NCBI RefSeq assembly: GCF_038751955.1
Contig: NZ_JBCEXH010000004.1
Span: forward strand, 1-64,000
DNA from: Methanocalculus natronophilus
GTDB taxonomy: Archaea > Halobacteriota > Methanomicrobia > Methanomicrobiales > Methanocorpusculaceae
DNA length: 64,000 nucleotides
Direction of reading: 5' to 3'
Numbering within the stretch: the stretch's first letter is position 1; the number at the start of each line of letters is the position of its first letter. Below, in pieces: positions 11,542 through 39,771 of this stretch. The notes under the pieces were generated by a model, which did not search any database, was not told where the DNA came from, and was given only the letters and a program-made list of their open reading frames with translations. The position numbers were made by a program, and so were the translations under genes.

Positions 11542-11570
11542 AACTCTCCTATTCCTTATGGTCTAGCGGA

Positions 11571-12979: not shown

Positions 12980-13410
12980 ACCATCGCCTCTTTTCCGATA
13001 TAGTCGTAGAAACGGTGTTTGAACCTATCAAATTCCCTGATCGTCCGGTATGCAACATCATACGCAAAACGCAAATCCTTTGCATAGAGCAGACGGCCCC
13101 GGATGACCTCAATTCTGATGTAGAGCGGGAGATGTGAAAAAATCTGGATATCAATACGGAAATCTGATAATTCTTTTATGCATGCAAACCGGAATCGTTC
13201 AGCCTCAGTTGTATCGCCATCATACCAGAGACAGAGATCGACATCCGAATTTGCCCGTGCCTGCCCCGCTGCAACAGATCCATAGAGGAAGATGAAACAG
13301 ACGCGATCAAAGCCATCGATAGCTTTGATACGCTTCAGGGCTTTGTCTGCAAGGTCTTCTGTGGGGGGCATGCAGGATCTCATATGTACGTAATGGGTGT
13401 TCATCATCAT
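12976..13410 (-). CDS. mntA: MntA-type nucleotidyltransferase antitoxin
   Basis: 144 residues. The minimal nucleotidyltransferase signature GS-x10-DxD is seen as GSVAAGQARANSDVDL, with a later DIQIFS strand supplying the third acidic residue. The family neutralises HepT by adenylylating it. Several Met codons lie in the first 14 residues and the exact start is uncertain; the conserved domain begins near residue 20. Translationally coupled to hepT by a 4-base overlap. Confidence 0.85.
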   Translation of the reverse strand: MMMNTHYVHMRSCMPPTEDLADKALKRIKAIDGFDRVCFIFLYGSVAAGQARANSDVDLCLWYDGDTTEAERFRFACIKELSDFRIDIQIFSHLPLYIRIEVIRGRLLYAKDLRFAYDVAYRTIREFDRFKHRFYDYIGKEAMV

Positions 13411-13453
13411 ATGTATTATGACAGGTCAGCACAATAAACCATAAAGCGATGAA

Positions 13454-13657
13454 ATGAAACAACCAGAGATAACTGATGTTTTGCCCCTCCAACACGAAAT
13501 TGAACGAATCATCGATTCCCTGCTCATTGGAGAAGTTGAGCTGGAGGATGATGAAATCCTCCTCATTTCAACGTATCAGGATCGGAAGAAGAACGGAGCT
13601 CTGATCCTCCATGAACTAGAGAGTATTTCCGTAGACGCCACCAACTGCACCTGGTAA
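13454..13657 (+). CDS. Small acidic protein of unknown function
   Basis: 67 residues, helical and acidic (EIERIIDSLLIGEVELEDDEI). It begins 44 bases from the divergent mntA and ends 77 bases before vapB. Size and position would suit an orphan antitoxin, but no toxin partner is adjacent and I do not recognise the family. Confidence 0.4.
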   Translation: MKQPEITDVLPLQHEIERIIDSLLIGEVELEDDEILLISTYQDRKKNGALILHELESISVDATNCTW

Positions 13658-13734
13658 CGATCGAAGATGCGGGTTAAATTTATACGTATATGAAACCACT
13701 TTTGTGTAACCAAATGTGTGGTGGTATGTGTACT

Positions 13735-13935
13735 ATGGGGACAAATCTTGCGCTCGATGATCATCTCATTGCTGAGGCCCAGGCAATCGGGGGAGCCCGC
13801 ACGAAGAAAGCCGCGGTTACTGAAGCTCTTGAGGAATATATTCGGAGAAGAAAACAGGTACGGATCACGGAACTCTTTGGAAAGATAGAGTATGATCCAG
13901 AGTATGACTATAAAAAACACCGTCTGCGAAGATGA
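13735..13935 (+). CDS. vapB: VapB-type antitoxin
   Basis: 66 residues from ATG 13735, preceded by GGTGG at suitable distance; the upstream in-frame ATGs add only a non-conserved Cys-rich tail. TNLALDDHLIAEAQAIGGARTKKAAVTEALEEYIRRR is the classic ribbon-helix-helix of VapB (Arc/MetJ fold). The C-terminal tail wraps the toxin. It overlaps vapC by 4 bases (ATGA). A TATACGTATA-like sequence about 50 bases upstream is a candidate promoter/operator. Confidence 0.85.
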   Translation: MGTNLALDDHLIAEAQAIGGARTKKAAVTEALEEYIRRRKQVRITELFGKIEYDPEYDYKKHRLRR

Positions 13936-14342
13936 AAGTCCTTGTTGATACCTCAATCTGGTCTCTTGCGCTCAGGAGAAGAGGTGTTCTGTCAGAGGAT
14001 GAAAAAGTACTGGTCAGTGTATTGATCGATCTGATCGATGATGCACGGGTTGTTATGATCGGTCCAATCAGGCAGGAATTACTCTCAGGGGTCTCATCAA
14101 TGTCACAGTTCAATGAACTCACAGAGCATCTGCAATCCTTTGAAGACCTGCCCCTTTACCGTGAGTACTATGAGAGGGCCGCTGACTTTTTTAACATCTG
14201 CAGACGATCCGGTGTTCAGGGTTCACATATTGACTTTTTAATCTGTGCAGTGGCAGTTGAAGCAGATCTGCAGATTTATACCTCAGATCGTGACTTTATT
14301 CTGTATGCAAAGCACCTGCCTATCCGTTTATATGGGACATAA
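13932..14342 (+). CDS. vapC: VapC-type PIN toxin
   Basis: 136 residues with all PIN acidic residues: VDTSIW (D6), the IRQELLSG glutamate, HIDFLICAVA and the YTSDRDF aspartates. The enzyme is an Mg-dependent RNase that usually targets tRNA or rRNA. Translationally coupled to vapB by the ATGA overlap. Length and motifs are intact. Confidence 0.9.
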   Translation: MKVLVDTSIWSLALRRRGVLSEDEKVLVSVLIDLIDDARVVMIGPIRQELLSGVSSMSQFNELTEHLQSFEDLPLYREYYERAADFFNICRRSGVQGSHIDFLICAVAVEADLQIYTSDRDFILYAKHLPIRLYGT

Positions 14343-14375
14343 CCGAATAACTCCTTATTCACTGCGGCCTTCAGG

Positions 14376-14544
14376 GGGGCACTGCTATCCTCCTTCTGGT
14401 CTCCGGTGAGGGCGGCCTTGCGGTCACCAAGCGGGGCTTTCCGCCCCGCCGGGAAGATATCTGCGCTCTTGCACTCATGAGGTTGCACTGTTTCTCCTTC
14501 AGATGCAGAATATCGATAGTTGACGCGCCCTGCCGATCCCATTT
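14376..14544. repeat. Dispersed repeat A, copy 2
   Basis: Same core as 11195-11400: GGTCACCAAGCGGGGC, GCGGGGC..GCCCCGC stem, GAAGATATCTGCGCT, CTCATGAGGTTG and GTTGACGCGCCCTGCCG. It joins directly to repeat B copy 1. No conserved frame. With B it fills the gap between vapC and the next PIN pair. Confidence 0.7.
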
Positions 14545-20850: not shown

Positions 20851-23511
20851 ATGCTTAAGGGGTCAGATATTCAAATACAAAAGCGGACGGTACGATATCT
20901 TTTCATCGCCGTCTGTCTCGTCGCGTTTGCCCTCCTCACATTCTGGTTTCGGACACTCCCGGTCTCCCAGATTGCTACCGAGCACTGGGCCAGCCTCATT
21001 GCTGTTGGCTGTCCGGATGTCTGGTTCAGTCTCCGGCAGATTGAACAGATCGTGACACATTTTCCATCATACTCGTGGTTTGACCCGATGACTGGTTTCC
21101 CGGATGGTCGGGTAGTTCATTGGGGCCCACTTTATCCATTAATGGCTTCGGTACTCGTTCTCCTGATGGGAGCATCAACACGGCCTGAGATGATGTATGT
21201 TGCTTCGTTTCTCTCTCCCCTGATGGCGGTTGCAATGGTCCCGGTGATGTATGGGCTCGGCGCAAAGCTTGTGGACTGGAAGACGGGGCTTGTGTCTGCC
21301 GGGTTTATCTCGATTGTTGCCGGGCAGTATGCGTATCGTTCGCTCTACTCGTTTATCGATCATCATATCACCGAGACGCTCTTCTCGGCACTCTTCTGTT
21401 TGTGTTTTATCATCGCGATGATGAAGCTGAAGGAGAGCGGGGTGCGCCTTACAGATCTGGAGAGCCTGAAAAATCCGGTACTGATCTATCCTGCGCTTGC
21501 GGGCTTTGCGTTTCTCCTTGGCATGTACAACATGGGGACAATGCTTGTCTTCCTCCTTCTTGTTGCCGTCTATACCCTTATCCAGATGATCGTGGATCAT
21601 ATCAGAAAGCAAGAGACGGATTATCTTGTCGTGACAAATGCGGTCACATTTTTCGTTGTGATAATCGGTCTTATCCCCTTTGGGCTGGTTCACACCGGGT
21701 TTGGGCTGGGCCGCTATAACGTTGGCAATCTTCTGCTCGCCTTATTTGTTATTATTGGATCCCTCCTTCTCTATGCTATCTCTCGGTATCTGGCAGATCG
21801 CCCCTGGTACTATTACCCTGCGTCCCTTGCGGGTTTGTGTGTGATCTCATGGATTGTTGGTAATCTTGCCCTTCCTACAGTATTTGGTGCCTGGTATGGG
21901 CGGTTTAGCAGTGTTGTCGGGATGGGTGCAACGACGCTGACTGTCCAGGAGGCGATGCCCTGGCAGTTTGCAAACGCGGTATCGGTATTTAACTGGGGCT
22001 GGATCCTCGTTGCCGGGGGGGTTTTGTATCTCCTGTACCTGATATGGAAGAGAAACGATGCACCTGCCCTCTTCACGCTCGTCTGGTTTGCGCTCATCCT
22101 CTTCATGACCATGCGGCAGGTCCGGTTTGAATACTACCTGGCCGCAAATATTGCCCTGATGGCGGCGATATGTGTTGGTGCTGTCATGCAGATCGGCGGC
22201 CGGGATCTGCTCCGGCTCACTGGCATTGCGAAATTCCTCAAGCCTAAGGATGACGCCGTGCCTCCGGAGGATCTTCCTGATATCCCGGAAAAGCCCGGAA
22301 AGAAGGGACAAAAACAGAAAAAGGATCAGCAGAAAAGAAAGGAGCGGAAAAAAGCCCCGGCAGAACCGCCTGCAAGCCCGCTCCGATCAGGCCTGCTCGT
22401 TGTGACAGTACTCATCGCCCTTCTCTTTGTACATTCCGGAGCCTCGGCGAATTATACGATCGGCACTAATGTCAGGGAGGGTATTAATTCAGACTGGCTG
22501 GTTGCACTCACATGGCTTGGAGAGAATTCGCCGGATCCTGGTGTGGACTATTATGAGATCTATGATTCACCACAAGCACGCGATGTCTTTGAGTATCCGC
22601 CAGAAGCATATGGGGTTCTCTCCTGGTGGGATTATGGCCACTGGATAACGTTTGTCTCAAAGAGAATACCGGTTGCAAATCCGTTCCAGCAAAATGCACG
22701 AACGTCTGCTCATTTCTTCATGGAGACAGATGTCGATGCTGCATCAGCAATGCTTGATGATCTTGGCGTCAGGTATATTATCACCGACATTGAGATGACA
22801 ACCGGCAAGTTCTGGGCAATGGCAACCTGGCACGATCCGGTGAATGCGACTGGCCACTTCCAGAAGCGGGTTCTCTACGAGGAGTCTGCGGGCTCATATT
22901 CACAGGTACAGCTCCAGCGCGAGAGTTATTTCCAGACGATGATCCAGCGGCTCCATGCGTTTGATGGATCTGCAGTAGTTCCAGAACAGATACTGGTTGT
23001 TCAGTCCGCGCCAGCAAATGAGCTTGGCATTGCCGATACCTCAACACCTGTGATCATTGGTGTTGGTGAGACAGAATCGGTTGATGAGGCGCGGGCATAT
23101 ATTGCTGAATTTGAGAAGACGGCACCTGCCGGCCAGACAGCCGAGATCCTCTCCCCCGAGATGTTTGTCTCTTCTACTGAGCTGGACGCACTCCCAAATA
23201 TCCGGCTTGTATATGAATCGCCGACAAATGTTCTCAGGGACGGCGGCGACATCAGGTACGTGAAGGTCTTTGAAGTTGTGCCTGGTGCTGTTCTCGAGGG
23301 TGAAGGGATGATTGAGGTGCCAGTTGAGACGAATACCGGCCGCACATTCACCTATCGGCAGGAGAGCCGGGATGGGGTATTTGTACTGCCGTATCCAACC
23401 GAGGCAGGGCCTGATGATGTGGTTGTGGCAACAGGACCGTACCGGATTGTTGAGACCGGGCAGGAGGTATCTGTTCCATACCAGGCGGTGATTGAGGGAT
23501 TGAGGATCTAA
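20851..23511 (+). CDS. aglB: Dolichyl-phosphooligosaccharide-protein glycotransferase (STT3 family)
   Basis: 886 residues. It transfers lipid-linked glycan to Asn in NxS/T sequons on the outer face of the membrane. The N-terminal half has many membrane helices. PDVWFSLRQIEQ with D56 matches the first catalytic acidic motif, and FIDHHITET the second. The signature WWDYG is at residues 592-596, just after the last helix, followed by a soluble C-terminal domain. A Lys/Glu-rich cytoplasmic-type loop (about residues 475-505) is notable. ATG 20851 lies about 28 bases from a T/A-rich box, suggesting a leaderless mRNA. Confidence 0.95.
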   Translation: MLKGSDIQIQKRTVRYLFIAVCLVAFALLTFWFRTLPVSQIATEHWASLIAVGCPDVWFSLRQIEQIVTHFPSYSWFDPMTGFPDGRVVHWGPLYPLMASVLVLLMGASTRPEMMYVASFLSPLMAVAMVPVMYGLGAKLVDWKTGLVSAGFISIVAGQYAYRSLYSFIDHHITETLFSALFCLCFIIAMMKLKESGVRLTDLESLKNPVLIYPALAGFAFLLGMYNMGTMLVFLLLVAVYTLIQMIVDHIRKQETDYLVVTNAVTFFVVIIGLIPFGLVHTGFGLGRYNVGNLLLALFVIIGSLLLYAISRYLADRPWYYYPASLAGLCVISWIVGNLALPTVFGAWYGRFSSVVGMGATTLTVQEAMPWQFANAVSVFNWGWILVAGGVLYLLYLIWKRNDAPALFTLVWFALILFMTMRQVRFEYYLAANIALMAAICVGAVMQIGGRDLLRLTGIAKFLKPKDDAVPPEDLPDIPEKPGKKGQKQKKDQQKRKERKKAPAEPPASPLRSGLLVVTVLIALLFVHSGASANYTIGTNVREGINSDWLVALTWLGENSPDPGVDYYEIYDSPQARDVFEYPPEAYGVLSWWDYGHWITFVSKRIPVANPFQQNARTSAHFFMETDVDAASAMLDDLGVRYIITDIEMTTGKFWAMATWHDPVNATGHFQKRVLYEESAGSYSQVQLQRESYFQTMIQRLHAFDGSAVVPEQILVVQSAPANELGIADTSTPVIIGVGETESVDEARAYIAEFEKTAPAGQTAEILSPEMFVSSTELDALPNIRLVYESPTNVLRDGGDIRYVKVFEVVPGAVLEGEGMIEVPVETNTGRTFTYRQESRDGVFVLPYPTEAGPDDVVVATGPYRIVETGQEVSVPYQAVIEGLRI

Positions 23512-26101: not shown

Positions 26102-27925
26102 GTGTCGACCATCAGAAACGCCAGCTCCATTCTCTACTATCTCTTTGGCCCCTTCAAGAAGCTGCTTGCTCTGTATCTTCTTGCGGTGATAGTACTTGCG
26201 GGGCTGGAAGTTTTCCGGGTGTCGCTTGTCTATCCGATCATTAATTTCGGGCTTGATGTTGATAACCAGCACCGGCTGCTTGACACATTTTTTGATCTGA
26301 TCCTCCCTGCATCAGTGCATCCGTTCCTCGCCTCGGCACTGCTGCTCCTTCTGACAACTGGTGTGATTGCCGGCTTTTATGCTGTGGTTGCATATGCCGG
26401 AGCATATGTCTTTGCAACAGTCCGTGATTCACTCGATCGGCGTATCTTTGCCCGCCTGATTGGAAATGATTACAGCTACTTTGCAGCAAAAAAGCAGGGG
26501 GATCTGCTGTATATCGGGCAGGGGGCAGTGACAGAAGGTGGACAGGCTATTAAAAGCTTCATGGAATGTATCAAGAACTCACTGATGGCCCTCCTCTACC
26601 TGCTGTTTATCTTGTATCTCTCGTTCTGGCTGACGGTAGCACTTCTCATCCTGGGTGCAGTGTATGCCATCCTTATCAGGCAGCAGCTCTTCACCCGTGT
26701 ATACAGAAACAGCTCGATTTTAAATGCAGCACTTATGGAGAAGTCGGTTGCCTACCAGGAGTTCATCTCAGGTATCAAGACGATCTTCATCACCGGCTCC
26801 CATTCCTTCTGGGCTGATAGGTATGATGCTGCGGTCCGCAAGCTCAAGAAGGCATATACCTTTGTTCAGGCACTCGGTAAACTCCCCTCCATCATCAATG
26901 ACTTTCTCATGTTCTCGATCATCGCGCTTGGTGCGGTTGTGCTGTATGTGTCGACAGGCGGGGATTTCCTCTCGTACATCGGACTTTTCGGGACATTCAT
27001 GCTTGCATTGTACCGTCTTGTTCCTGCAGCAACCCAGGCGCAGACCAATCTGACGTCAATGGTACAGTATCTCCCGGCGCTTGAACTCATCTATGCAGAA
27101 CTGAGCCGTGAGGACGGTGAGCGGGAGAAGCGGGCGAAAGAGGGGCAGGGCAAGCCGTTTGCATTCAGAGACTCAATCCGGTTTCAGAATGTTTATTTCC
27201 GCTATCCTGCTGCAACACGGGATACGATTCGTGATGTCTCCTTTGAGATACAAAAGAAGTCAACAGTTGCAATTGTCGGGGATTCCGGATCTGGGAAGAC
27301 GACGATTGCCAATCTCCTTGCCCTTCTGTATACGCCGGATAGGGGGGTGATCGCAGTCGATGGAACAGATGTACATGAATATGATCCCAGAGAGTACCTG
27401 CGAGCTCTTGGCTACATCGGCCAGGAGACGTTTATCTATCACGATACAATCGGAGAGAATATCCGGTTTGGGCTCCACTGCACCGATGAAGAGATTATCG
27501 CTGCCGCACAACGTGCGGATGCCCATTCATTCATCATGGCAACCGATCATGGCTATGATACCATCATTGGCGATCAGGGCATGAAGCTCTCAGGCGGCCA
27601 GCGGCAGCGGGTTGCGATCGCACGAATTATTCTTCGGAACCCGGAGATCCTGCTCCTGGATGAGGCAACAAGTTCGCTTGACAATATCTCTGAGAAGCGG
27701 ATTGTTGATGCAATCCAGCAGCTCTCAAAGAATATGACGGTGATCACAATTGCCCACCGGCTCTCAACAATTCAGAATGCGGATGTGATCTATGTGTTAA
27801 GTGAGGGGAGGATAGTGGAGAGCGGGAGCCATGAAGAGCTGCTGGGGCGGAGAGGAGAGTACTATCGGTTGTATCTTGGGCAGGAGAGGGAAGAGAAGAA
27901 CGAGAAGAACGAGCTATCTTCCTGA
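26102..27925 (+). CDS. ABC transporter, fused permease-ATPase (PglK/MsbA-type lipid-linked glycan flippase)
   Basis: 607 residues. An N-terminal six-helix membrane domain (about 1-330) is followed by an ATPase: Walker A GDSGSGKTT, Q-loop YIGQETF, signature LSGGQRQRVAIAR, Walker B EILLLDEATSSLD and H-loop IAHRLST. Half-transporters of this type dimerise and flip lipid-linked oligosaccharides (PglK) or lipids (MsbA). Placement between aglB and sugar-nucleotide genes favours a role in exporting the glycan-lipid used by AglB. Start GTG 26102 after GAGGATCA. Confidence 0.9.
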   Translation: MSTIRNASSILYYLFGPFKKLLALYLLAVIVLAGLEVFRVSLVYPIINFGLDVDNQHRLLDTFFDLILPASVHPFLASALLLLLTTGVIAGFYAVVAYAGAYVFATVRDSLDRRIFARLIGNDYSYFAAKKQGDLLYIGQGAVTEGGQAIKSFMECIKNSLMALLYLLFILYLSFWLTVALLILGAVYAILIRQQLFTRVYRNSSILNAALMEKSVAYQEFISGIKTIFITGSHSFWADRYDAAVRKLKKAYTFVQALGKLPSIINDFLMFSIIALGAVVLYVSTGGDFLSYIGLFGTFMLALYRLVPAATQAQTNLTSMVQYLPALELIYAELSREDGEREKRAKEGQGKPFAFRDSIRFQNVYFRYPAATRDTIRDVSFEIQKKSTVAIVGDSGSGKTTIANLLALLYTPDRGVIAVDGTDVHEYDPREYLRALGYIGQETFIYHDTIGENIRFGLHCTDEEIIAAAQRADAHSFIMATDHGYDTIIGDQGMKLSGGQRQRVAIARIILRNPEILLLDEATSSLDNISEKRIVDAIQQLSKNMTVITIAHRLSTIQNADVIYVLSEGRIVESGSHEELLGRRGEYYRLYLGQEREEKNEKNELSS

Positions 27926-28050: not shown

Positions 28051-29310
28051 ATGGTTTTAACAGAACATCCGGATCCCACAGTCTGCGTCGTCGGCCTCGG
28101 GTATGTCGGCTACCCGCTCGCATGTGCATTTGCTGAAAAGATCCAGACGATCGGCTATGACGTCGATGCGAAGAAGATCGCCGCGATCAACGCTACCCCC
28201 GGCAACCTAATCGAGGCGACGACTGATCCAACGCCGATAGGAACTGCAGATATTGTCATCGTTGCTGTCCCGACACCGGTCACAAAGGCCAAGGATCCTG
28301 ATATCTCGTATATCGTCTCTGCCGGGGAGACGGTGGGGAAGCAGATGAAAGCAGGTGCGATCGTTGTTCTTGAATCAACCGTCTACCCCGGCCTCACCGA
28401 GGAGGTCTTCGTCCCGGCGCTTGAGCGTGCATCAGGCCTTGTCTGCGGCCGCGACTTCTTCGTCGGCTACTCGCCTGAGCGGATCAACCCGGGCGACGAC
28501 GACCATACCCTCGAGAAGATCACAAAAGTCGTCGCCGGCATGGACGAGGCAACCGCGGCCCGGCTCGCCGCCCTGTATGGAATGATCACAACTGTCCATC
28601 TTGCGCCTGACATCCGGACAGCTGAGGCGGCAAAAGTGATCGAGAATGTCCAGCGGGACTTAAATATCGCTCTGATGAACGAGCTTGCGATCATCTTCGG
28701 CAGGATGGGTATCGACACCCGGGCAGTCCTTGAGGCGGCTGCCACCAAGTGGAACTTCCACCGCTACCGGCCGGGCCTCGTCGGCGGCCACTGCATCCCG
28801 GTTGACCCTTACTATCTGGTGATGAAGGCAGAAGAGCTCGGCTACCACCCGCAGGTGATCCTGGCCGGCCGGGCGATCAACGACGCGATGCCCCGGCATG
28901 TTGCCCAGCTGGCGATCAAGGAGCTGAACCGGGCAGGCAGGGTGATCAAAGGCTCCCGCCTCCTCATCATGGGCCTTACCTACAAGGAGAATGTCCCTGA
29001 CACTCGTGAGAGCCCGGTGGAGGAGATGATCCGGGAGTTAAAAGAGTTTGAGATCGAGGTCTATGGGTACGACCCCCTCCTCAGGGCAGAGGATATCGAG
29101 TATTTTGGGGCGCGACCTGTGACATCGCTTGGAGAGATTGGTGGCCCGGTTGACTGCATTGTGATCAATGCCCCACACGCGTCTTTCTCAGAACTGACGC
29201 TGGAGACGGTCTGCGGGATCTGCAATGGCAAACCGATCGTTGTTGATGTGACCGGTATGTTGCGGAATGATATAAAGGTCAGGGAAGAATGTGTTTACAG
29301 AACTTTGTAG
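28051..29310 (+). CDS. UDP-N-acetyl-hexosamine 6-dehydrogenase (WecC/WbpA/TviB family)
   Basis: About 419 residues from ATG 28051 (GTG 28036 possible). [20 protein letters not shown] is the NAD motif, followed by [21 protein letters not shown] and the catalytic cysteine in [14 protein letters not shown], then [16 protein letters not shown] in the C-terminal domain. [10 protein letters not shown] distinguishes the UDP-GlcNAc/ManNAc group from the UDP-glucose dehydrogenase at 7476. It forms UDP-HexNAc-uronic acids for the glycan. Its end runs into a fragment of an unrelated ABC transporter gene. Confidence 0.9.
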
Positions 29311-29720
29311 CTCCGGATGACCAGATTATCGCCGCTGCAGAGCGTGCCAACATCCACACCTTCATCGCCGCCCTCCCGGATGGCTATGACGCAATCGTCG
29401 GCGACCAGGGGCTGAAGCTCTCCGGCGGCGAGAAGCAGCGGATCGCGATCGCCCGCGCCCTCGTCCGCGAGCCCGAGATCTTGGTGCTGGACGAGGCGAC
29501 GAGCAACCTGGACAACGAGTCAGAGGCGATCGTCCAGGCATCCATCAACCAGATATCAGAGACGATCACCACCTTTATCATCGCCCACCGGCTCTCGACG
29601 ATCCGAAGGGCAGATACGATCTATGTGATGAGCAAGGGGAGGATCGTTGAGAGCGGGGGACATGAGGAGTTGCTGGAGAGGAAGGGGAAGTACTGGGAGT
29701 TGTATGAAAGTGGGGTGTGA
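29311..29720 (+). pseudogene. C-terminal fragment of a second flippase-type ABC transporter
   Basis: The frame entering from 29289 reads [53 protein letters not shown] and [12 protein letters not shown]: the last ~135 residues of an ATP-binding domain with signature, Walker B and H-loop but no Walker A, Q-loop or membrane domain. It closely parallels, but is not identical to, the end of the intact gene at 26102-27925 and is more GC-rich. It joins the dehydrogenase gene without a spacer, indicating a deletion or recombination junction at about 29310. Confidence 0.85.
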
Positions 29721-29762
29721 ATGAGATGATGATATTCATTATTGTGATTGAAGGAGATCTGA

Positions 29763-32180
29763 ATGATTTCTATTGATTCACAGAAAAAAATCAAATTCGG
29801 CTCGAAAGCCGAGACGCTTGCACAAATCAATAATTTATCATTATCATGTACGATACCGCCCTTCACATTCTTCTCTCGAAAAGACTGGAGAATTCAGTCA
29901 GCTTCTCTGCTGGAAAAGATATCAAAATCATTCCAACCTTATCTTGTTGCAGTACGCAGCTCGGCAGCCTGTGAAGACGGAATCGGTCTGTCAAATGCCG
30001 GGGCATTTGAATCTATCCTCAATATTAATCCAGACAATACAAAAGAACTTCGTGAAGCGATTGAAAAGGTATTCGCCTCTTATCCTGAACAGGATGAAGC
30101 AGATCAGGTTCTTGTTCAACAGATGGTTACAGGGATTGCCGTCAGTGGTGTCATCCTAACCCGCTTCGTTGATGATGGATCTCCCTATTATGTGCTCAAC
30201 TATGATGACGAGACCGGCCGAACCGATTCCATCACAGGCGGTACCGGCGTTCACAAGACGGTGATGGTGTACCGGAAATATAAGGAAGAATATTTCGATT
30301 CTCCCCGTGTCCGAAAGATGCTTGCTTTAGCTCAGGAAATTGAAGAGATCTGCGGGTGGGTCCCCCTTGATATTGAGTTTGCTATTGATCATGATGGCTC
30401 CGTGTATCTATTACAGGTTCGGAGGATCAGCACCGTTGGAGGCTGGCATCCGGATACAGAACACCGGGTATCTCGTGTAATCCCTCAGGTAGAACGTTTT
30501 ATTGAGCACCTCTCTGCACGAAGAAAAGGTCTTTTCGGGGCATCGTCAATATTTGGCAATATGCCGGATTGGAATCCGGCAGAACTGATCGGTCCAATCC
30601 CTTCTCCCCTCGCCGCATCACTCTTCCGAAAACTGATCTCTTCGAATGCCTGGAGTGTTGCACGGGCGCAGATTGGCTACCATAAGATACCCCGTACAGA
30701 GTTGATGGTGCTCATCGGCGGACGGGCATATATTGATGTCCGGGCCAGTTTCAACTCATTTCTCCCAAAAGGGATCCCTGAAGAGATTGGAGAGAAGCTG
30801 ATCAATGCATGGCTTGCCAGACTCTCGGCCAACCCAAGTCTCCATGATAAAGTCGAGTTTGAGGTCGCCCACACAGTGCTGGACTTCACATTTGATACCG
30901 TATTTGCTGAGCGATATGGTGACGTTCTAACTCCTGAGGAGACTTGTATCTTCAAAGCCTGCCTACAGGAATTTACGAACAATGCTCTTGATATGACCGC
31001 TGCTGGCAGCCTGCCAAAGGCACTCTCCAGAATTGATAGCCTGGCAGAGGAACAGAGCAATGGTGCCCTTGAAATCAAGACAGAGAGCCCTGTTGCTCTG
31101 GCAGCGTTTATTGCCGATCTTCTGGAAGACTGTATTCAGTATGGCACCATTCCGTTTACCATTATTGCCCGGCACGGGTTCATAGCTGAGACGCTGCTTC
31201 GCTCTGCCATACAACGTGGCGCGATCACCAGGGAAAGGGTCGCTGAGTTCAAATCATCATTCAATACTATTATGGGTGAACTTGCACGTGATACGCAGGC
31301 GGTTTGTGAAGGCCGCCTCGATGAAGCTGTATTTCACGAGCGCTACGGTCACCTGCGTCCCGGTACTTTTGATATTATGTCACCCTGCTATCGGGATCGA
31401 CCCGATCTCTTTGACAACTGCAACATAGCAGATAGAGCCGATCATCAGGGTCCATTCACTTTAACAGATGAGGAAGAGCAGGCAATCAATACTCTTTTGC
31501 AAAAGGCGGGCGTTGGCTCCATAGACGCAGAAGGACTCTTTGCATATGCTCAGGCAGCAATTTGCGGGAGGGAGTATGGGAAGTTTGTCTTCTCCCGCAA
31601 CCTTTCAGCAGCGCTTGAGGCGATTGCATCATGGGGTGAGTTCTATACCCTCGGGAGAGAGGATCTTTCTTATCTCACAATTGATGATATCATCGACAGC
31701 TGCTACACCTCAACGCGGGATGAAATGACATCTGTCCTGATGCAGAAAGTAGATCAGGCACGCATCGGACAATCTTTTGCCAAACTGTTGAAACTCAGCT
31801 ATCTGATTCGTGGTGTCCGGGACATTCATGTCGTACCTATCCACCGCTCTGAGCCGAACTTCATTACACAGAAGAAGATCGAGAGGCCTTGCAAGTTCCT
31901 TGATGCAACAACGCTCAATTCAGGCTCATTGAAAGATTATATCATCTGTATCGACAATGCGGACCCCGGTTTTGACTGGATCTTTTCAAAGGGTATTGCA
32001 GGATTAATTACTAAATATGGGGGGGCAAACTCTCATATGGCGATCCGTTGTGCCGAACTGCAGCTGCCTGCTGCCATCGGCTGTGGTGAGGATCTCTTTG
32101 AAAGGTTACGGAACTGCCGGAAGATTGTACTGAATTGTGAATCAAGGGTAATCAGACCTCTGGGGTATTATGAGGGGTAG
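29763..32180 (+). CDS. L-glutamine kinase-like enzyme (Cj1418 type, PEP-synthase fold)
   Basis: 805 residues. An N-terminal ATP-grasp/PEP-synthase-type domain contains VAVRSSAACEDG, VLVQQMV and DIEFAIDHDGSVYLLQVRR. A central region has NMPDWNPAELIG, typical of this subfamily. The C-terminal swivelling phosphohistidine domain has GGANSHMAIRCAELQLPAAIG with the catalytic His at residue 758. The Campylobacter jejuni homologue Cj1418 uses ATP to phosphorylate the side-chain amide nitrogen of glutamine. No pyruvate-binding barrel is present, so it is not PEP synthase. The stop overlaps the next gene by 11 bases; the three following genes are the cognate pathway partners. Confidence 0.83.
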   Translation: MISIDSQKKIKFGSKAETLAQINNLSLSCTIPPFTFFSRKDWRIQSASLLEKISKSFQPYLVAVRSSAACEDGIGLSNAGAFESILNINPDNTKELREAIEKVFASYPEQDEADQVLVQQMVTGIAVSGVILTRFVDDGSPYYVLNYDDETGRTDSITGGTGVHKTVMVYRKYKEEYFDSPRVRKMLALAQEIEEICGWVPLDIEFAIDHDGSVYLLQVRRISTVGGWHPDTEHRVSRVIPQVERFIEHLSARRKGLFGASSIFGNMPDWNPAELIGPIPSPLAASLFRKLISSNAWSVARAQIGYHKIPRTELMVLIGGRAYIDVRASFNSFLPKGIPEEIGEKLINAWLARLSANPSLHDKVEFEVAHTVLDFTFDTVFAERYGDVLTPEETCIFKACLQEFTNNALDMTAAGSLPKALSRIDSLAEEQSNGALEIKTESPVALAAFIADLLEDCIQYGTIPFTIIARHGFIAETLLRSAIQRGAITRERVAEFKSSFNTIMGELARDTQAVCEGRLDEAVFHERYGHLRPGTFDIMSPCYRDRPDLFDNCNIADRADHQGPFTLTDEEEQAINTLLQKAGVGSIDAEGLFAYAQAAICGREYGKFVFSRNLSAALEAIASWGEFYTLGREDLSYLTIDDIIDSCYTSTRDEMTSVLMQKVDQARIGQSFAKLLKLSYLIRGVRDIHVVPIHRSEPNFITQKKIERPCKFLDATTLNSGSLKDYIICIDNADPGFDWIFSKGIAGLITKYGGANSHMAIRCAELQLPAAIGCGEDLFERLRNCRKIVLNCESRVIRPLGYYEG

Positions 32181-32817
32181 TACGGATCTCCGTCTGGGTC
32201 TATCCATGCGGGTTGTGGAAGCGACCGGATATGTTGAGCCTCGTGATGCCCTGGCACAGGACTGGTCGGTCTTTTTAAAGCGTGTACTTCCGGACGCCCA
32301 CTGGATTCCTGTACCCAATATTGGGAAGGATGTTAGTGAATTAATTGAGTACTGGGGTTTGAATGGTTTCATCCTGACAGGTGGGAACAATATCCATGAT
32401 GCTCCAATACGTGATGAAACCGAATTGACTATGCTGGAGTATGCAACCCGGAATACATTGCCGGTCCTTGGGGTCTGCCGGGGGATGCAGATGATCTGCC
32501 ATTACTATAATCAGAGTCCTCTCCCCTGCCAGAATCCTCACAACCATGTTGCAACAATCCACAGGGTACATTTGACAGACAATTTTCTGCAATGGGATGA
32601 AGATGAATTGACGGTCAACTCATTCCATGAGCAGTGTGTGGGTACAGGCGATCATTTTAGAGGAGAGTTAAAGTCATTTGCCATTGCCGATGATGGACTT
32701 GTTGAGGGGGTCATAAATGCCGAAAAGACGTTGCTTGGTATCATGTGGCATCCCGAGAGAGAGAATCCGGCGTCAGACTTTGACGAATATCTAATTAGAA
32801 CTTTCTTTTCGAGATAA
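32170..32817 (+). CDS. Gamma-glutamyl-CDP-amidate hydrolase-like class I amidotransferase (Cj1417 type)
   Basis: 215 residues. Class I glutaminase fold with the nucleophile C103 in LGVCRGMQM and the H194/E196 pair in MWHPERE. The substrate-side FILTGGNNIHD matches the gamma-glutamyl hydrolase/GATase group. In C. jejuni Cj1417 removes glutamate from L-gamma-glutamyl-CDP-amidate, releasing cytidine diphosphoramidate. No synthase domain is attached. The start ATG lies inside the end of the glutamine-kinase gene, so translation is coupled. Confidence 0.82.
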   Translation: MRGSTDLRLGLSMRVVEATGYVEPRDALAQDWSVFLKRVLPDAHWIPVPNIGKDVSELIEYWGLNGFILTGGNNIHDAPIRDETELTMLEYATRNTLPVLGVCRGMQMICHYYNQSPLPCQNPHNHVATIHRVHLTDNFLQWDEDELTVNSFHEQCVGTGDHFRGELKSFAIADDGLVEGVINAEKTLLGIMWHPERENPASDFDEYLIRTFFSR

Positions 32818-32828
32818 GAGGAATAAAA

Positions 32829-33569
32829 ATGCGTGGAATCATACTTGCAGCAGGACGCGGTTCACGACTGGACCGAAGAACCGATGACAGGCCGAAATGC
32901 CTGGTGGAGCTATCCGGACATCCGCTATTAGAGTGGCAACTGGGAGCGATGCATAATGCAGGCATCGATGATATTCTTGTTGTCAGAGGATATCGCGGTG
33001 AGATGATAAAAGGAGCATTTGAGGTGCGTGATAACCCCGACTGGCCGCAGACACACATGGTAGCAAGCCTGATGTGTGCCCATGAATGGCTTGCTGAGGA
33101 TGAGTGTATTATATCATACTCTGATATCGTGTATGGTGCAGATGCCATTACTCAGTTGAGTAATGCGGATGGATCACTTGCCATCCTCTATGATACACGG
33201 TGGCGCGAACTCTGGCAGGAGCGGTTTGATGATCCGCTCTCTGATGCAGAGAGTTTCTCTGTTGATGAGAATGGAAATATTCTGGATATTGGGCGGAAAG
33301 GAGTTTCATTTGATGATATCCATGGACAATACATGGGTTTGTTGAAGTTCACTCCTGAATCATACCGGTGGATTGCTACACTGCTTGATAATCAGGTCGA
33401 GTTGAAGAACAAACTGGATATGACGTCTCTACTATCACGCCTTATTCAGGACGGACATTCTATTCAGGGAGTACCCTGGGATGGGGTATGGTGCGAGGTT
33501 GATGATGGATCTGATCTTGAAGTTGCTGAAGGAAAGGTTCGGGCAGGAGAGCTTGTTTTTCCCAAATAG
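32829..33569 (+). CDS. CTP:phosphoglutamine cytidylyltransferase-like enzyme (Cj1416 type)
   Basis: 246 residues, single GT-A-like nucleotidyltransferase domain: GIILAAGRGSRLDRRTDDRPKCL, the LSGHPLLEWQL acceptor strand, YSDIVYG as metal-binding DxV/D region and WCEVDDGSDLEVAE near the C-terminus, resembling phosphocholine cytidylyltransferase-type proteins. In the Campylobacter pathway Cj1416 joins CMP from CTP to the phosphoryl group of glutamine phosphate. Eleven bases separate it from the preceding gene. Confidence 0.82.
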   Translation: MRGIILAAGRGSRLDRRTDDRPKCLVELSGHPLLEWQLGAMHNAGIDDILVVRGYRGEMIKGAFEVRDNPDWPQTHMVASLMCAHEWLAEDECIISYSDIVYGADAITQLSNADGSLAILYDTRWRELWQERFDDPLSDAESFSVDENGNILDIGRKGVSFDDIHGQYMGLLKFTPESYRWIATLLDNQVELKNKLDMTSLLSRLIQDGHSIQGVPWDGVWCEVDDGSDLEVAEGKVRAGELVFPK

Positions 33570-33598
33570 TTCAAAACGATTTGTTGAGGTTCTCTGAT

Positions 33599-34117
33599 AT
33601 GATCATATGGCTGGTAGGGTTGTCCGGGTCAGGGAAGACAACCATTGGAAGAGAGATGTATAAGCTCTGGAAGCCTCATGCTCCAAATACCGTCATGGTT
33701 GATGGGGACGATGTCCGGAGGATACTTGGCTGTGATACCGAGCCCCGTGACTATACAATGGAGGGGCGAAGAAATCTGGCCATGCAATATGCTGAGATCT
33801 GTTTATGGCTGGATGAACAGGATATTAATGTGATCTGCTGTACCATCAGTAACTTTGAAGATATCTATATCAATAATCGGGAGCGGTTTTCTAAGTACTA
33901 TCAGGTCTTTATTGATGCACCAATTGAACTTCTGAAAAAGAGAGATCCGAAGGGTCTTTACAGCCGGGCAGCAGCGGGTACAGAAACAAATGTTGTTGGG
34001 ATCGATCTTCCCTTCACCCCTCCAAAAACTTCTGATTATACAATTTGTAATGATGAAACAGCACCCAGCCCTGAAGACATCGCTTATGGTATTTTAAAAG
34101 CAGCGGGGATTGTATGA
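33599..34117 (+). CDS. Cytidine diphosphoramidate 3'-kinase-like enzyme (Cj1415 type, APS-kinase fold)
   Basis: 172 residues from ATG 33599, preceded by TTGAGGT (the frame extends six codons further up without conservation). MIIWLVGLSGSGKTT has the P-loop with K13; VDGDDVRRILGCD matches the APS-kinase DGDxVR motif; GLYSRAAAG fits the substrate loop. True APS kinases phosphorylate the 3'-OH of adenylyl sulfate. The C. jejuni Cj1415 enzyme of this subfamily phosphorylates the 3'-OH of cytidine diphosphoramidate. No sulfurylase or PAPS gene is nearby, favouring the latter. Overlaps the next gene by 4 bases. Confidence 0.8.
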   Translation: MIIWLVGLSGSGKTTIGREMYKLWKPHAPNTVMVDGDDVRRILGCDTEPRDYTMEGRRNLAMQYAEICLWLDEQDINVICCTISNFEDIYINNRERFSKYYQVFIDAPIELLKKRDPKGLYSRAAAGTETNVVGIDLPFTPPKTSDYTICNDETAPSPEDIAYGILKAAGIV

Positions 34118-34986
34118 AAAATCGGCTGGATCGCTGGATATTTGGTAAAGAACAGGAGATCCTTGCTCTTGAAACAGATGGACCTCCTCCAAAATACGCC
34201 GATCTCCACCTCCACACCACCGCCTCCGACGGCACCCTCACCCCCCGTGAGCTAGTTATCGCGGCAAAAGATGCAGGGCTCTCCACCATTGCTATCACCG
34301 ATCATGATACGATCGATGGCATCGAAGAGGCATGCCGAGCTGGCCGCGAGTTTGATCTGGAGGTGATCCCTGGAATCGAACTCTCTACAATAGACGGCAA
34401 AAAGGAGATTCATATCCTGGGTTATTTCATTGATCCCACGAATTGCAGTTTAAATGCCATCATCCAAAAGATGATTGATGCCCGGGAGAATCGGGCTGTT
34501 CGTATGGTGGAGAAACTCAATGAGCTTGGGATCGAGATTACCGTTGAAAGGGTGCGTGAGATTTCAGGAACAACATTTATCGGCAGACCGCATATTGCGC
34601 GGGTAATGCAGGAGATGGGCTATATTGAAGAGCAGTCTGAAGCATTCACAACAGAGTACATCGGCAGCGGCGGAAGGGCATATATTGAGCGGTTTAAGAT
34701 AACGCCCGCGGATGCCATCTCACTGATTCATGAGGCTGGCGGTGTGGCTGTTCTTGCGCATCCAGGTTATCTTGGTGATCGGAGTACGCTTGGTGAAGAA
34801 GATATTGCGCGGTATGTCGGGTTAGGGTTGGATGGGGTGGAGGTGTATTATGCAAAGCATACAGAAGAGCAGGTTGAGTATTATAAGGGATTGGCACTTA
34901 CGTATGGGTTGATGATGACCGGAGGATCGGATTTTCATGGGGGTAAGGATTTATTATCATTTTTTATCATCAAGTCGGTAGTGTGA
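34114..34986 (+). CDS. PHP-family metal phosphoesterase (TrpH/YciV-like)
   Basis: 290 residues. PHP motifs in order: YADLHLHTTASDGT (H32, H34, D39), ITDHDTIDG, IPGIELST, HILGY, FIGRPHIARVM, VLAHPGY and GGSDFHGG. Members such as YciV/TrpH hydrolyse nucleoside 3',5'-bisphosphates to 5'-mononucleotides. The ATGA overlap with the CDPA-kinase-like gene ties it to the phosphoramidate operon, where the expected by-product of transfer from a 3'-phospho-CDP donor is cytidine 3',5'-bisphosphate. The last ~15 residues after SDFHGG are atypical, so the C-terminus may be altered. Confidence 0.8.
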   Translation: MKNRLDRWIFGKEQEILALETDGPPPKYADLHLHTTASDGTLTPRELVIAAKDAGLSTIAITDHDTIDGIEEACRAGREFDLEVIPGIELSTIDGKKEIHILGYFIDPTNCSLNAIIQKMIDARENRAVRMVEKLNELGIEITVERVREISGTTFIGRPHIARVMQEMGYIEEQSEAFTTEYIGSGGRAYIERFKITPADAISLIHEAGGVAVLAHPGYLGDRSTLGEEDIARYVGLGLDGVEVYYAKHTEEQVEYYKGLALTYGLMMTGGSDFHGGKDLLSFFIIKSVV

Positions 34987-35017
34987 GTAGTTCATATAAA
35001 AAATGAATGGTGCGTTA

Positions 35018-36214
35018 ATGAGTATTAATTATAATGATTTATTTCATCACCTTGAAAACCTGAAAATTGTTGTTCTTGGTATAGATTATACACGACCCGG
35101 ATCTGATTTTTTCCAGAGCTTAACTGATGGTCATCCGGAAATTATTCAGACAACTGGAACCTGCCTTTATAGATATCATGGGTTTTGGGGTTCTGCTGTA
35201 TCAAAAGATAATGTACAGGATCTAGTTGAAGAATTTATATATTTCCCATATCATATGCCCCTTTTTGATTCAAGATTCAGAGTTACAGAGAGATGGAATA
35301 AACTTGGTGTTAATAAAAATGAACATTTTGAAGTAGATATTCCGTTATTCCGCCAACATGCACTGGGTTTTATGGAAGGAAAAGAAGTAAACTTCCGTAA
35401 TTTCTTTTTAGCGGTTCATGGTGCATATGCTTTAACCTTGGGTCAGAATATTAAAAATGCGAAGATTATTTTTTATCATATTCATCATATTAAAAACTGG
35501 GAAAGATATATGCCTGATTTCCCAAATTTTAAAATTATAATAATGACAAGGGATCTCAGAGATGGATTAGTTTCATATATTGAACATAGAAAACCTGGAT
35601 CAGCTAGTTACTGTCGACCAGACTCTCATATTGCCCCATTGAGCACATATTCATCGATTTTTTATTATGTTAAGAAATATGATGATGTCATCTTCCTTTC
35701 TCTCAGGGATCTTCATCATGAGCCATCTAAGATACTTAGCTGCTTTTGTAAAGATGTAAATATACAATTTTTACCAGAAATATTATTGGAATCAAGTTAT
35801 CATGGAAAATTGTGGTGGGGAGATATTATGTCCCCTAAATTTATTAATGGTTTTAATCCGGAATTTGGGAAAATCAATAGATGGAAAGGTAAATTAAGTC
35901 AAATTGATAATCTTATAATCGAATTTTTATATCATAATCAATTCATGGCATTTAATCATCCTCGAAAGCATGGAAACTTATTATATTACGTAATGTACCT
36001 ATTGGCACCAATAGTTATTTTTAAGCCAATGAGGTACGAAATGAAATTTTTCTTTTATCAAGTTAGACGGAGAGATATGTCTCCTACCAGAAAAATTAAA
36101 TTTTGCCTATTTGCATTATTAAATTATTTAGTTAGGATTAAAATATACTTGGTAGTATATTTTAGAAAAATCACTCTCCAAAAAATCAAAATTACAAAGT
36201 ATGGTGATTGTTAG
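35018..36214 (+). CDS. Sulfotransferase-fold protein, candidate phosphoramidate transferase
   Basis: About 398 residues from ATG 35018 (GGTG upstream; ATG 35003 lacks a site). The sulfotransferase 5'-phosphate loop appears as DYTRPGSDFFQSLTDGHPEI and the 3'-phosphate-binding region as TRDLRDGLVSYIEH (R178, S186); LSLRDLHHEPSKILSCF matches the later yEDL..P block. The first loop lacks the usual SGT, having PGSDFF. Strongly AT-rich compared with the upstream operon, so it was probably acquired separately. With no PAPS synthesis gene in view but a 3'-phospho-CDP-amidate route directly upstream, transfer of phosphoramidate to a sugar hydroxyl is my inference. Confidence 0.6.
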   Translation: MSINYNDLFHHLENLKIVVLGIDYTRPGSDFFQSLTDGHPEIIQTTGTCLYRYHGFWGSAVSKDNVQDLVEEFIYFPYHMPLFDSRFRVTERWNKLGVNKNEHFEVDIPLFRQHALGFMEGKEVNFRNFFLAVHGAYALTLGQNIKNAKIIFYHIHHIKNWERYMPDFPNFKIIIMTRDLRDGLVSYIEHRKPGSASYCRPDSHIAPLSTYSSIFYYVKKYDDVIFLSLRDLHHEPSKILSCFCKDVNIQFLPEILLESSYHGKLWWGDIMSPKFINGFNPEFGKINRWKGKLSQIDNLIIEFLYHNQFMAFNHPRKHGNLLYYVMYLLAPIVIFKPMRYEMKFFFYQVRRRDMSPTRKIKFCLFALLNYLVRIKIYLVVYFRKITLQKIKITKYGDC

Positions 36215-36449: not shown

Positions 36450-37232
36450 ATGAAAATCATCATCCTTGCCGGTGGATTTGGCACACGGCTTGCCGAAGAA
36501 ACACACACTATCCCAAAGCCGATGCTTGAGATCGGTGGGCGCCCGATACTCTGGCATATCATGAAGCTGTACTCACACTATGGTTTCAACGATTTTGTCA
36601 TACTCCTTGGCTATAAGGGATATATTATAAAAGAATATTTTGCAAACTATTTCCTCCACCAGAGTGATGTTACCATCGATATTGCCACAAACTCAATCAA
36701 AGTTCATACCAACCATTCAGAACCGTGGGTGGTAACCCTTCTTGACACCGGGTTAAACACAATGACGGGGGGGCGCATCCTGAGAGCACGGGATTATATA
36801 GGCGATGAGACTTTTATGCTGACATATGGTGATGGGGTTGCCAATGTGAATCTTCAAACACTTGTTGAGTTCCACCGTTCACATGGTCATCTGGCGACAT
36901 TAACCTCAGTGCAACCAGAAGGACGTTTTGGGTCGATCTCTTCTGATCAATCGGGAAAGGTAAAATCATTCATAGAAAAGCCTGTTGGCGATGGCAATTG
37001 GGTTAATAGTGGTTTTTTTGTCTGTGAACCCGGGGTTTTTGATTATATACAAAATGGAGATATGACTACCTTTGAACGTGAACCTCTTGAAGAATTAAGT
37101 CGAGATGGGCAGCTATTTACATACAAGCATACAGATTTTTGGCAGTGCATGGATACCCAAAGGGATATGCAGCAGTTGAATCAGTTATGGAATGAAGGGA
37201 AGGCCCGATGGAAAGTATGGGATAAGAGATAA
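36450..37232 (+). CDS. rfbF: Glucose-1-phosphate cytidylyltransferase
   Basis: 260 residues, full length. IILAGGFGTRLAEETHTIPKPM is the nucleotidyltransferase loop; FMLTYGDGVANV contains the metal-binding Asp; FIEKP and VNSGFFVCEPGVFDYI match RfbF. It makes CDP-glucose, the entry point of CDP-3,6-dideoxyhexose synthesis. One base separates its stop from the next start, so rfbFG are co-translated. Confidence 0.95.
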   Translation: MKIIILAGGFGTRLAEETHTIPKPMLEIGGRPILWHIMKLYSHYGFNDFVILLGYKGYIIKEYFANYFLHQSDVTIDIATNSIKVHTNHSEPWVVTLLDTGLNTMTGGRILRARDYIGDETFMLTYGDGVANVNLQTLVEFHRSHGHLATLTSVQPEGRFGSISSDQSGKVKSFIEKPVGDGNWVNSGFFVCEPGVFDYIQNGDMTTFEREPLEELSRDGQLFTYKHTDFWQCMDTQRDMQQLNQLWNEGKARWKVWDKR

Positions 37233-37233
37233 T

Positions 37234-38349
37234 ATGAAATCACCATTTTCACAGTACCGGAACTCGAGGGTGGTTGTTACCGGTCATACCGGCTTTAAGG
37301 GATCGTGGCTCTCTCTATGGCTTTCAAAGCTGGGTGCCGAGGTATATGGGTACTCGTTATCTCCGGATACCACTCCAAATAATTATTCGGTCTCTTCAGT
37401 AAGTGATCTTCTTTCCGGGGAAACAACCGCTGATATCTTAGATGTGAGTTCTTTGAAAACCGCTATCAGGCAGGCTGATCCTGATTTCGTCTTTCATCTT
37501 GCTGCCCAGCCCCTTGTGAGGTTGAGCTATGAGCATCCAATCAGTACGTTTCAGACAAATGTCATCGGATCGCTGAATGTTCTTGAAACTATCCACGAAC
37601 GTGAGCAGCCTTGCTCGGTTGTCATGGTAACTAGTGATAAGTGTTATGAGAATTCTGGCCAGACATGGGGGTATCGTGAGTGCGATCCTCTTGGAGGGCA
37701 TGATCCTTATAGTGCAAGCAAGGCCGCCGCGGAAATTGCCATCTCTTCATATCAGCGTTCTTTCTTCCCAAAAGACTGTATAGATGATCATGGGGTGTGT
37801 GTTGCCACCGTAAGGGCTGGCAATGTTATCGGTGGAGGTGACTGGGCAGCAGATAGGATCATCCCGGATGCGGTGCGGGCTTTATCTGAAGGAAAGGCAG
37901 TTCATGTTCGTAATCCTCATGCAGTCCGGCCCTGGCAGCATGTGCTCGAGCCATTATCCGGCTACCTGACACTAGCAGCCAGGATGGCTGAGACGAGGGA
38001 GCCGGGCCTGTCATCTGCATGGAATTTCGGCCCGCTCAGCTATGATGAATGTCCGGTCTCGGAACTGATGGATATCTTCTGTAAGGAATGGGGTTCTGGG
38101 GCATCATGGACGCATCTTCATCAGGATCACGCGCCCCATGAGGCTTCGGTGTTACGGTTAGCAATTGATAAGGCAATCCACCAGTTACAATGGAAGCCAA
38201 GGTGGAATCTCGATGAGGCTGTGAGGAGAACAGCTGGGTGGTATAAGGCGTATTATCAGGGAGATGTTGGGTCTATTCAGGCTGTCAGTTTGACTGATAT
38301 TGATGCATATGAACATAGTATGAGAGGTACCTCAGAGTATGATTCATGA
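37234..38349 (+). CDS. rfbG: CDP-glucose 4,6-dehydratase
   Basis: About 371 residues from ATG 37234, just after the rfbF stop. Extended SDR: VVVTGHTGFKGSWLSLWL, FHLAAQPLVRLSYEHP, VTSDKCYEN and the catalytic YSASK; RPWQHVLEPLSGYL is characteristic of RfbG. It forms CDP-4-keto-6-deoxyglucose using bound NAD+. Confidence 0.95.
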   Translation: MKSPFSQYRNSRVVVTGHTGFKGSWLSLWLSKLGAEVYGYSLSPDTTPNNYSVSSVSDLLSGETTADILDVSSLKTAIRQADPDFVFHLAAQPLVRLSYEHPISTFQTNVIGSLNVLETIHEREQPCSVVMVTSDKCYENSGQTWGYRECDPLGGHDPYSASKAAAEIAISSYQRSFFPKDCIDDHGVCVATVRAGNVIGGGDWAADRIIPDAVRALSEGKAVHVRNPHAVRPWQHVLEPLSGYLTLAARMAETREPGLSSAWNFGPLSYDECPVSELMDIFCKEWGSGASWTHLHQDHAPHEASVLRLAIDKAIHQLQWKPRWNLDEAVRRTAGWYKAYYQGDVGSIQAVSLTDIDAYEHSMRGTSEYDS

Positions 38350-38454
38350 GGTATCCAGTGTATTACCAGATCTTCCTGCTACCCAATTGCAACTATATTC
38401 TACACAAGACCCTGATAGAACCTATTATATAAATTTCAATTGGAGAAGAAACGA

Positions 38455-39771
38455 ATGAATCATACTTCAGAAGACAGGACAGAAATCTTTACCAAAGTAA
38501 AGGAACTATTTCTGCAAAAAAAAACCGATCCTTTCATTCCGGGAGAGACATATATACAATATGCTGGGCGAATCTACGATGAACGCGAAATAATTAGTCT
38601 CGTTGATGCCTCTCTTGATTTCTGGTTGACTCATGGACGGTACACTGAACAGTTCGAAAAAGAACTGGCAGCTTTTCTTGGTGCAAAACACTGTTTGCTG
38701 ACAAACTCTGGATCATCTGCAAACCTTCTAGCAGTGTCAGCTCTTACTTCTCCAAAACTTGGTGAAAAACGCTTAAGAACAGGCGATGAAGTTATCACAA
38801 CAGCCTGTGGTTTTCCCACGACATTGAATCCAATTCTACAAAATAACCTGATTCCTGTTTTTCTTGATGTGGAAAATGAAACCTATAATATTCAGGCAGA
38901 CCAGATTGAAGGGGCATTATCTAAAAAAACGAAGGCAATTGTGATCCCACATACACTGGGAAATCCTGCAGATCTTGGTAGAATCATGGAGATTGTACAA
39001 GATCATGATCTCTGGTTTGTTGAGGACAATTGTGATGCCCTTGGATCGCGTTATCAGGGTAAGTATACTGGTACTTTTGGTCATATCTCCACATGCAGTT
39101 TTTATCCTGCCCACCATATCACCATGGGTGAAGGGGGTGCAGTCCTTACCAGTGATCCACTGCTTAACAGGATACTTGGATCTTTCCGGGATTGGGGGCG
39201 GGATTGCTGGTGTGGTCCAGGGTGTGATAACTCCTGCAAAAAGAGATTTGATTGGAAAATGGGTGATCTTCCCTATGGGTATGATCACAAATACATCTAC
39301 TCGCATATTGGATATAATCTCAAAGTGACTGAAATGCAGGCTGCTATCGGAGTTGAACAGTTGAAGAAACTTCCTGGATTCATTCAAAAGCGGAAAGAAA
39401 ACTTTGCTACACTTCATCATGGATTAAAAGAATATGAGGATGAATTGGTTTTGCCCAGCGCCACGGAACAATCAGATCCCAGCTGGTTTGGTTTCCCCAT
39501 TATGGTGTACGATGATGCATCGTTTACGAGAGGAGATATTGTTACCTATCTTGAAAAACATAAAATTGCAACAAGGATGTTATTTGGGGGAAACCTACTC
39601 AAACAGCCAGCATACCTTGGTATACCGCATCGAGTGGCCAGTTCGCTTGAAAACACCGATCGCGTGATGAATAACCTCTTCTGGATCGGTGTTTACCCGG
39701 GTATTGATGAAGAACAGAATGCGTATATTCTGAATTCCTTTAATCAATTTTTCAATGATTTTGGAGCTTGA
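38455..39771 (+). CDS. rfbH: CDP-4-keto-6-deoxy-D-glucose 3-dehydrase (E1)
   Basis: 438 residues from ATG 38455 (GGAGAAG site). It has the aminotransferase fold with His in place of the PLP lysine (SFYPAHHITMGEGG), the hallmark of the PMP-dependent 3-dehydrase, and the cysteine cluster CWCGPGCDNSC for the [2Fe-2S] centre. It removes the C3 hydroxyl to begin 3-deoxygenation. The electron-donating reductase partner (AscD/RfbI type) is not in this window. Confidence 0.93.
   Translation: MNHTSEDRTEIFTKVKELFLQKKTDPFIPGETYIQYAGRIYDEREIISLVDASLDFWLTHGRYTEQFEKELAAFLGAKHCLLTNSGSSANLLAVSALTSPKLGEKRLRTGDEVITTACGFPTTLNPILQNNLIPVFLDVENETYNIQADQIEGALSKKTKAIVIPHTLGNPADLGRIMEIVQDHDLWFVEDNCDALGSRYQGKYTGTFGHISTCSFYPAHHITMGEGGAVLTSDPLLNRILGSFRDWGRDCWCGPGCDNSCKKRFDWKMGDLPYGYDHKYIYSHIGYNLKVTEMQAAIGVEQLKKLPGFIQKRKENFATLHHGLKEYEDELVLPSATEQSDPSWFGFPIMVYDDASFTRGDIVTYLEKHKIATRMLFGGNLLKQPAYLGIPHRVASSLENTDRVMNNLFWIGVYPGIDEEQNAYILNSFNQFFNDFGA

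Follow-up and report, generated by a model that had tools for sequence, protein, structure and literature searches.

A candidate gene cassette for phosphoramidate-donor synthesis in the chromosome of the methanogen Methanocalculus natronophilus

The window analysed here is a stretch of 64,000 nucleotides from Methanocalculus natronophilus (assembly GCF_038751955.1, contig NZ_JBCEXH010000004.1, positions 1-64,000, forward strand), and its subject is a gene cassette that may produce a phosphoramidate donor. Four intact open reading frames lie one after another on the plus strand, at 29763-32180, 32170-32817, 32829-33569 and 33581-34117, with neighbours either overlapping or 11 bases apart; this is the arrangement described in an earlier sequence-only reading of the same DNA, which ended the unit at 34117. 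A fifth gene on the same strand, coding for a PHP-family phosphatase (34114-34986), overlaps the fourth and extends the cassette, whose limits of 29727-34943 are given by nucleotide identity with a congeneric species (genome G007) as compared with the flanks. No methyltransferase gene was found within the cassette. In Campylobacter jejuni the order of the corresponding genes is Cj1418-Cj1417-Cj1416-Cj1415, and their product serves the O-methyl phosphoramidate of the capsule.

The first gene (29763-32180) encodes a protein of 805 amino acids that is a candidate l-glutamine kinase of the same type as Cj1418, a known glutamine kinase (PMC10971088). Among NCBIfam models it scores 879 bits against PRK05849 (cut-off 501) and at most 58 bits against those for phosphoenolpyruvate (PEP) synthase. 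Pfam recognises two domains, PPDK_N and the mobile PEP-utilizers, and no PEP/pyruvate barrel, and the candidate phosphohistidine, H758, sits in the motif GGANSHM, in agreement with the barrel-less kinase of PEP-synthase fold proposed from the sequence. The second gene (32170-32817, 215 amino acids) codes for a candidate gamma-glutamyl-CDP-amidate hydrolase of the Cj1417 type and, as also proposed, a stand-alone class I glutaminase; its best NCBIfam model is NF045546, named for that hydrolase (103 bits, versus 41 for the next family), to which other glutaminases of three genomes score 33 bits or less, and its triad C103, H194 and E196 is invariant across 11 kinase-linked homologues. The third product (32829-33569, 246 amino acids) is a nucleotidyltransferase of the Pfam family NTP_transf_3, 40-51% identical to kinase-linked homologues; its best solved structures, LicC and MurU, are close to tied, and gene linkage makes it a candidate CTP:phosphoglutamine cytidylyltransferase of the Cj1416 type.

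The fourth gene (33581-34117) encodes 178 amino acids, counted from a TTG start, with the fold of adenosine 5'-phosphosulfate (APS) kinase; it is a candidate CDP-amidate 3'-kinase of the Cj1415 type, and cj1415 likewise lies downstream of cj1416 (PMC3907429). The protein scores 157 bits against the NCBIfam model PRK05541 (cut-off 127) and 91 bits against apsK, below the cut-off of 138.7, and the genome has no other full-length protein of the APS-kinase family. The P-loop lysine previously named K13 is present; that number holds only with a start at the ATG at 33599, the residue being K19 from the listed TTG. Eight kinase-linked homologues also exceed the PRK05541 cut-off, whereas the APS kinase adjoining ATP sulfurylase in a related archaeon (G494), the single ATP-sulfurylase-linked protein serving as control, remains below it with 106 bits and scores higher with ordinary APS-kinase models. 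Comparison of active-site residues with solved structures gave no clearly discriminating position; by its model scores the protein is placed in the kinase-linked subfamily, unlike the type found beside ATP sulfurylase. Indeed, in the genome, which is 99.7% complete, PF01747 had zero matches and CysD none above the cut-off; no ATP sulfurylase was thus detected, and a true APS kinase would be without its substrate.

A scan based on the kinase alignment, with one genome per species, returned at least 550 relatives; the best 80 were kept, all carrying bacterial titles and none from Campylobacter. In 55 of 89 kinase loci, which is beyond chance, the kinase, glutaminase and nucleotidyltransferase genes are consecutive; 65 loci have an APS-kinase-fold gene, and 14, among them those of the window and the congener, have all four genes in the order of the window. 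The kinase tree spans at least 13 phylum-level bacterial groups. One locus, L027 (MT837632.1, 652-3687), whose record is entitled "Bacteriophage sp.", encodes a kinase-glutaminase fusion of 1011 amino acids; the remaining genes there look bacterial.

As regards Archaea, a kinase above the cut-off was found in 2 of 232 genomes of the order and in 4 of 393 of a sample of the phylum, that is, in two further archaeal genomes. The four-gene order is present in the window species and its congener, and the other, haloarchaeal pair is without the 3'-kinase: L116 (genome G401, 6401-10940) and L117 (genome G368, 6954-11526) both combine a nucleotidyltransferase-kinase fusion with a glutaminase and an additional nucleotidyltransferase, and neither genome yielded a full-length match to the APS-kinase family. 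In L117 two TagF-like genes lie upstream of the fusion locus. In the tree, the methanogen pair falls among anaerobic bacteria (15 rows, support 100) and the haloarchaeal pair within another group of bacteria (6 rows, support 100); a single archaeal kinase clade was rejected (p-AU 6e-5, in an approximately unbiased test run on a quick tree, the four rows having been chosen for their archaeal hosts). The two types of archaeal copy nest separately among bacteria, suggesting that the kinase was acquired at least twice.

Starting from the genes, families, residues and linkage observed, the cassette shared with the congener and the outcome of the ATP sulfurylase search, a pathway can be proposed by family and linkage. 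The kinase, using ATP, would phosphorylate the amide nitrogen of glutamine; the cytidylyltransferase would couple phosphorylated glutamine to CMP from CTP, and the glutaminase would strip glutamate, leading to cytidine diphosphoramidate (CDP-NH2). The APS-kinase-fold enzyme would then add a 3'-phosphate, a transferase would pass the phosphoramidate to a glycan sugar, and the PHP phosphatase would split the leftover 3',5'-cytidine bisphosphate (pCp). The sequence-only reading had described the conversion of glutamine, ATP and CTP to 3'-phosphorylated CDP-phosphoramidate by Cj1415-Cj1418, as the literature reports (PMC11800397), and its assignment of this pathway to the methanogen is sustained by family models, linkage, catalytic residues and the failure to detect ATP sulfurylase. 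The best matches of kinase, glutaminase and APS-kinase-fold protein are not PEP synthase, an ordinary glutaminase and true APS kinase, respectively; family models do not decide between choline cytidylyltransferase and the Cj1416 type for the nucleotidyltransferase. A role of the cassette in making a phosphoramidate donor for surface glycans appears probable, at roughly 70%.

The use of such a donor may involve the PHP phosphatase and a protein encoded just downstream. The best NCBIfam model of the former is NF041577 (3',5'-nucleoside bisphosphate phosphatase), with 194 bits. Among kinase loci of other bacteria, L070 alone showed a PHP gene next to, and overlapping, the APS-kinase-fold gene, and a literature search on the PHP phosphatase gave nothing useful. 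Sulfation is followed by cleavage of 3',5'-adenosine bisphosphate (pAp); on this model the phosphatase could recycle the by-product pCp.

The genes 3' of the cassette differ between the two species, with a sulfotransferase-fold protein in the window species and a TagF-like protein in the congener. The former (35003-36214, plus strand, 403 amino acids, GC content 31%) lies outside the shared cassette and has no Pfam match; its AlphaFold2 model (predicted local distance difference test, pLDDT, 71; predicted TM-score, pTM, 0.72) gave sulfotransferases as best Foldseek matches (E 6e-6, probability 1.00), with TM-scores of about 0.4-0.5. Its homologues encoded close to kinase loci of bacteria contain PF13469, and no match to its gene was found in the congener. 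The TagF-like protein has relatives in Pseudomonas and other loci, where their genes immediately precede the APS-kinase-fold gene. The 35003-36214 protein is the first candidate for phosphoramidate transferase in the window species, and the TagF-like protein is the candidate in the congener. Sulfotransferase-like and TagF-like genes stand together in none of the 89 loci (p 0.003), a pattern that may reflect the relatedness of the loci. TagF-like genes had also seemed to mark loci without the 3'-kinase (p 0.001, haloarchaeal seed); this was rejected with the wider family, in which 17 of 25 TagF-like loci have that kinase.

The closest relatives found within the order for the window PHP and sulfotransferase-like proteins are neighbours in G494, next to ATP sulfurylase and APS kinase, the PHP protein being 71% identical to the one from that locus; the pair may thus derive from a sulfation module, and may have been re-used for phosphoramidate transfer or be a remnant. 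The G494 locus (L130, G494:C1:558000-577500, 9150-14407), in which sulfotransferase-like, PHP, pyruvate-kinase-like, APS kinase and ATP sulfurylase genes adjoin, is likely a sulfation locus; its pyruvate-kinase-like protein is an odd one of 322 amino acids. A full sulfation-like cycle in the window species, where 3'-phosphorylated CDP-NH2, a sulfotransferase-fold transferase and a pCp-recycling phosphatase would together decorate archaeal N-linked glycans, is put forward tentatively, with the odds against it.

Several points weigh against a phosphoramidate donor as the product. Neither PRK05849 nor PRK05541 is named for a phosphoramidate activity; the placement of Cj1418 and Cj1415 in them is an assumption, and the four C. 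jejuni proteins were matched to those of the window by protein type. The glutaminase score to NF045546 is below the equivalog cut-off of 250, and its kinase-linked bacterial homologues likewise reach just 91-95 bits; the sequence and family models of the nucleotidyltransferase give its fold family, not its substrate. The PHP protein is below the equivalog cut-off of 400 for NF041577, so that we infer, rather than assign, the recycling of pCp. Moreover, the transferase differs between the two species and neither candidate is fixed to the role, and the sulfation-type locus of G494 that holds the closest PHP and sulfotransferase-fold relatives is without the kinase; the window kinase found no match in G494, which shows little as the search had no positive control.

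One rival is a related pathway with another product, in which the kinase acts on a different amide or acid and the CDP-linked compound is not CDP-NH2. The kinase is at most about 50% identical to the bacterial homologues found, all of them uncharacterised, and the nucleotidyltransferase is similar to enzymes acting on phosphocholine and on sugars; however, the kinase is accompanied by an APS-kinase-fold enzyme and by a glutaminase of the same type as gamma-glutamyl-CDP-amidate hydrolase, making up the whole known pathway, and a different product is unlikely. A sulfation module, with the APS-kinase-fold, PHP and sulfotransferase-fold proteins making and using 3'-phosphoadenosine 5'-phosphosulfate (PAPS) and the other three enzymes serving something else, would find a parallel in G494, where the PHP and sulfotransferase-like genes keep the order of the window next to APS kinase and ATP sulfurylase. 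Conversely, the lack of a detectable ATP sulfurylase, the kinase-linked subfamily of the APS-kinase-fold protein and the congener, which retains the PHP gene yet shows no match to the sulfotransferase-like one, argue against such a module, which we regard as quite improbable.

The history of the cassette can be followed by comparison with the congener. Nucleotide identity is 97.05% over 29727-33997 (4.3 kb), versus 76% in the flanking ABC (ATP-binding cassette) exporter; in the segment 33986-34943, 956 of 958 bases are identical, and the likeness stops at 34943, within the final codons of the PHP phosphatase gene, so that the last residues differ between the species. The PHP protein is 100% identical over 278 amino acids and had no match at E 1e-30 in 59 other relatives searched; the nucleotidyltransferase gene is identical in the two species. 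On sequence comparison the cassette appears as recently exchanged. For the kinase, the nonsynonymous and synonymous divergences (dN 0.012, dS 0.143, dN/dS about 0.08) indicate purifying selection. A newly arrived cassette, silent or decaying in the window species, might be suspected from its occurrence in so few genomes of the order, the different PHP ends and the different neighbouring transferase genes, but is very improbable in view of the open frames throughout, the low dN/dS of the kinase and the identical nucleotidyltransferase gene.

The cassette lies within a cell-surface sugar locus. Some 6 kb upstream of it, on the plus strand, 20851-23511 encodes the oligosaccharyltransferase AglB, with STT3 and AglB domains and 787 bits against TIGR04154 (archaeo_STT3, cut-off 450), which is the likely context of the glycan. 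The window also encodes methenyl-tetrahydromethanopterin cyclohydrolase and Cdc6-type, NeuB-type and sugar-nucleotide proteins. At 29289-29720 the C-terminal part of the ABC exporter (26102-27925) is partly duplicated, with 63% identical residues; a UDP-sugar dehydrogenase gene separates the two copies, an arrangement suggestive of a recombination scar. Nucleotidyltransferase, dehydratase and DegT-family genes at 36450-39771 resemble a CDP-dideoxyhexose pathway, Pfam giving broad families alone. Within the sugar locus, 53357-54298 codes for a protein of 313 amino acids without Pfam match, and at the edge of this locus (58100-61054) there are genes resembling an IS21-type pair and a transposase fragment.

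P-N bonds are rare in biology; if the cassette works, phosphoramidate would be present on archaeal surface glycans, and the PHP and transferase genes are candidates for the use of the 3'-phosphorylated donor and the fate of its by-product. In a 2022 review the glutamine kinase was called C. jejuni-specific (PMC9561416); with the loci described here, its family is found in at least 13 phylum-level groups of bacteria and, among Archaea, in two distinct lineages. Loci of Verrucomicrobia (L094), Rhodospirillaceae (L029) and Desulfovibrio (L028) have genes as in the window, often in the same order; unlike the window cassette, kinase loci of other bacteria often have methyltransferases nearby. With PAPS sulfation modules, which comprise ATP sulfurylase, APS kinase, sulfotransferase and pAp phosphatase, the window has in common a nucleotide donor with a 3'-phosphate, as predicted, a sulfotransferase-fold protein and a bisphosphatase; it differs in having no detected ATP sulfurylase and in a donor that would contain cytidine instead of adenosine. 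Four protein types are shared with C. jejuni; the window cassette, however, is archaeal, lies beside AglB, has the PHP phosphatase as fifth gene and is devoid of a methyltransferase. The sequence-only reading held the decoration to be known only from bacteria, a view now outdated, since a 2025 paper predicts an O-methyl phosphoramidate cluster in the Cobalt Borg (PMC12660748), and the archaeal setting is thus not wholly new. The Borg cluster and the window cassette, both predictions, share this setting and nearby surface-glycan genes; the former lies on an extrachromosomal element of Methanoperedens, whereas the latter is chromosomal. As far as the literature searched shows, what is new is the presence of such cassettes in archaeal chromosomes, the linkage of a PHP phosphatase and the candidates for the transferase.

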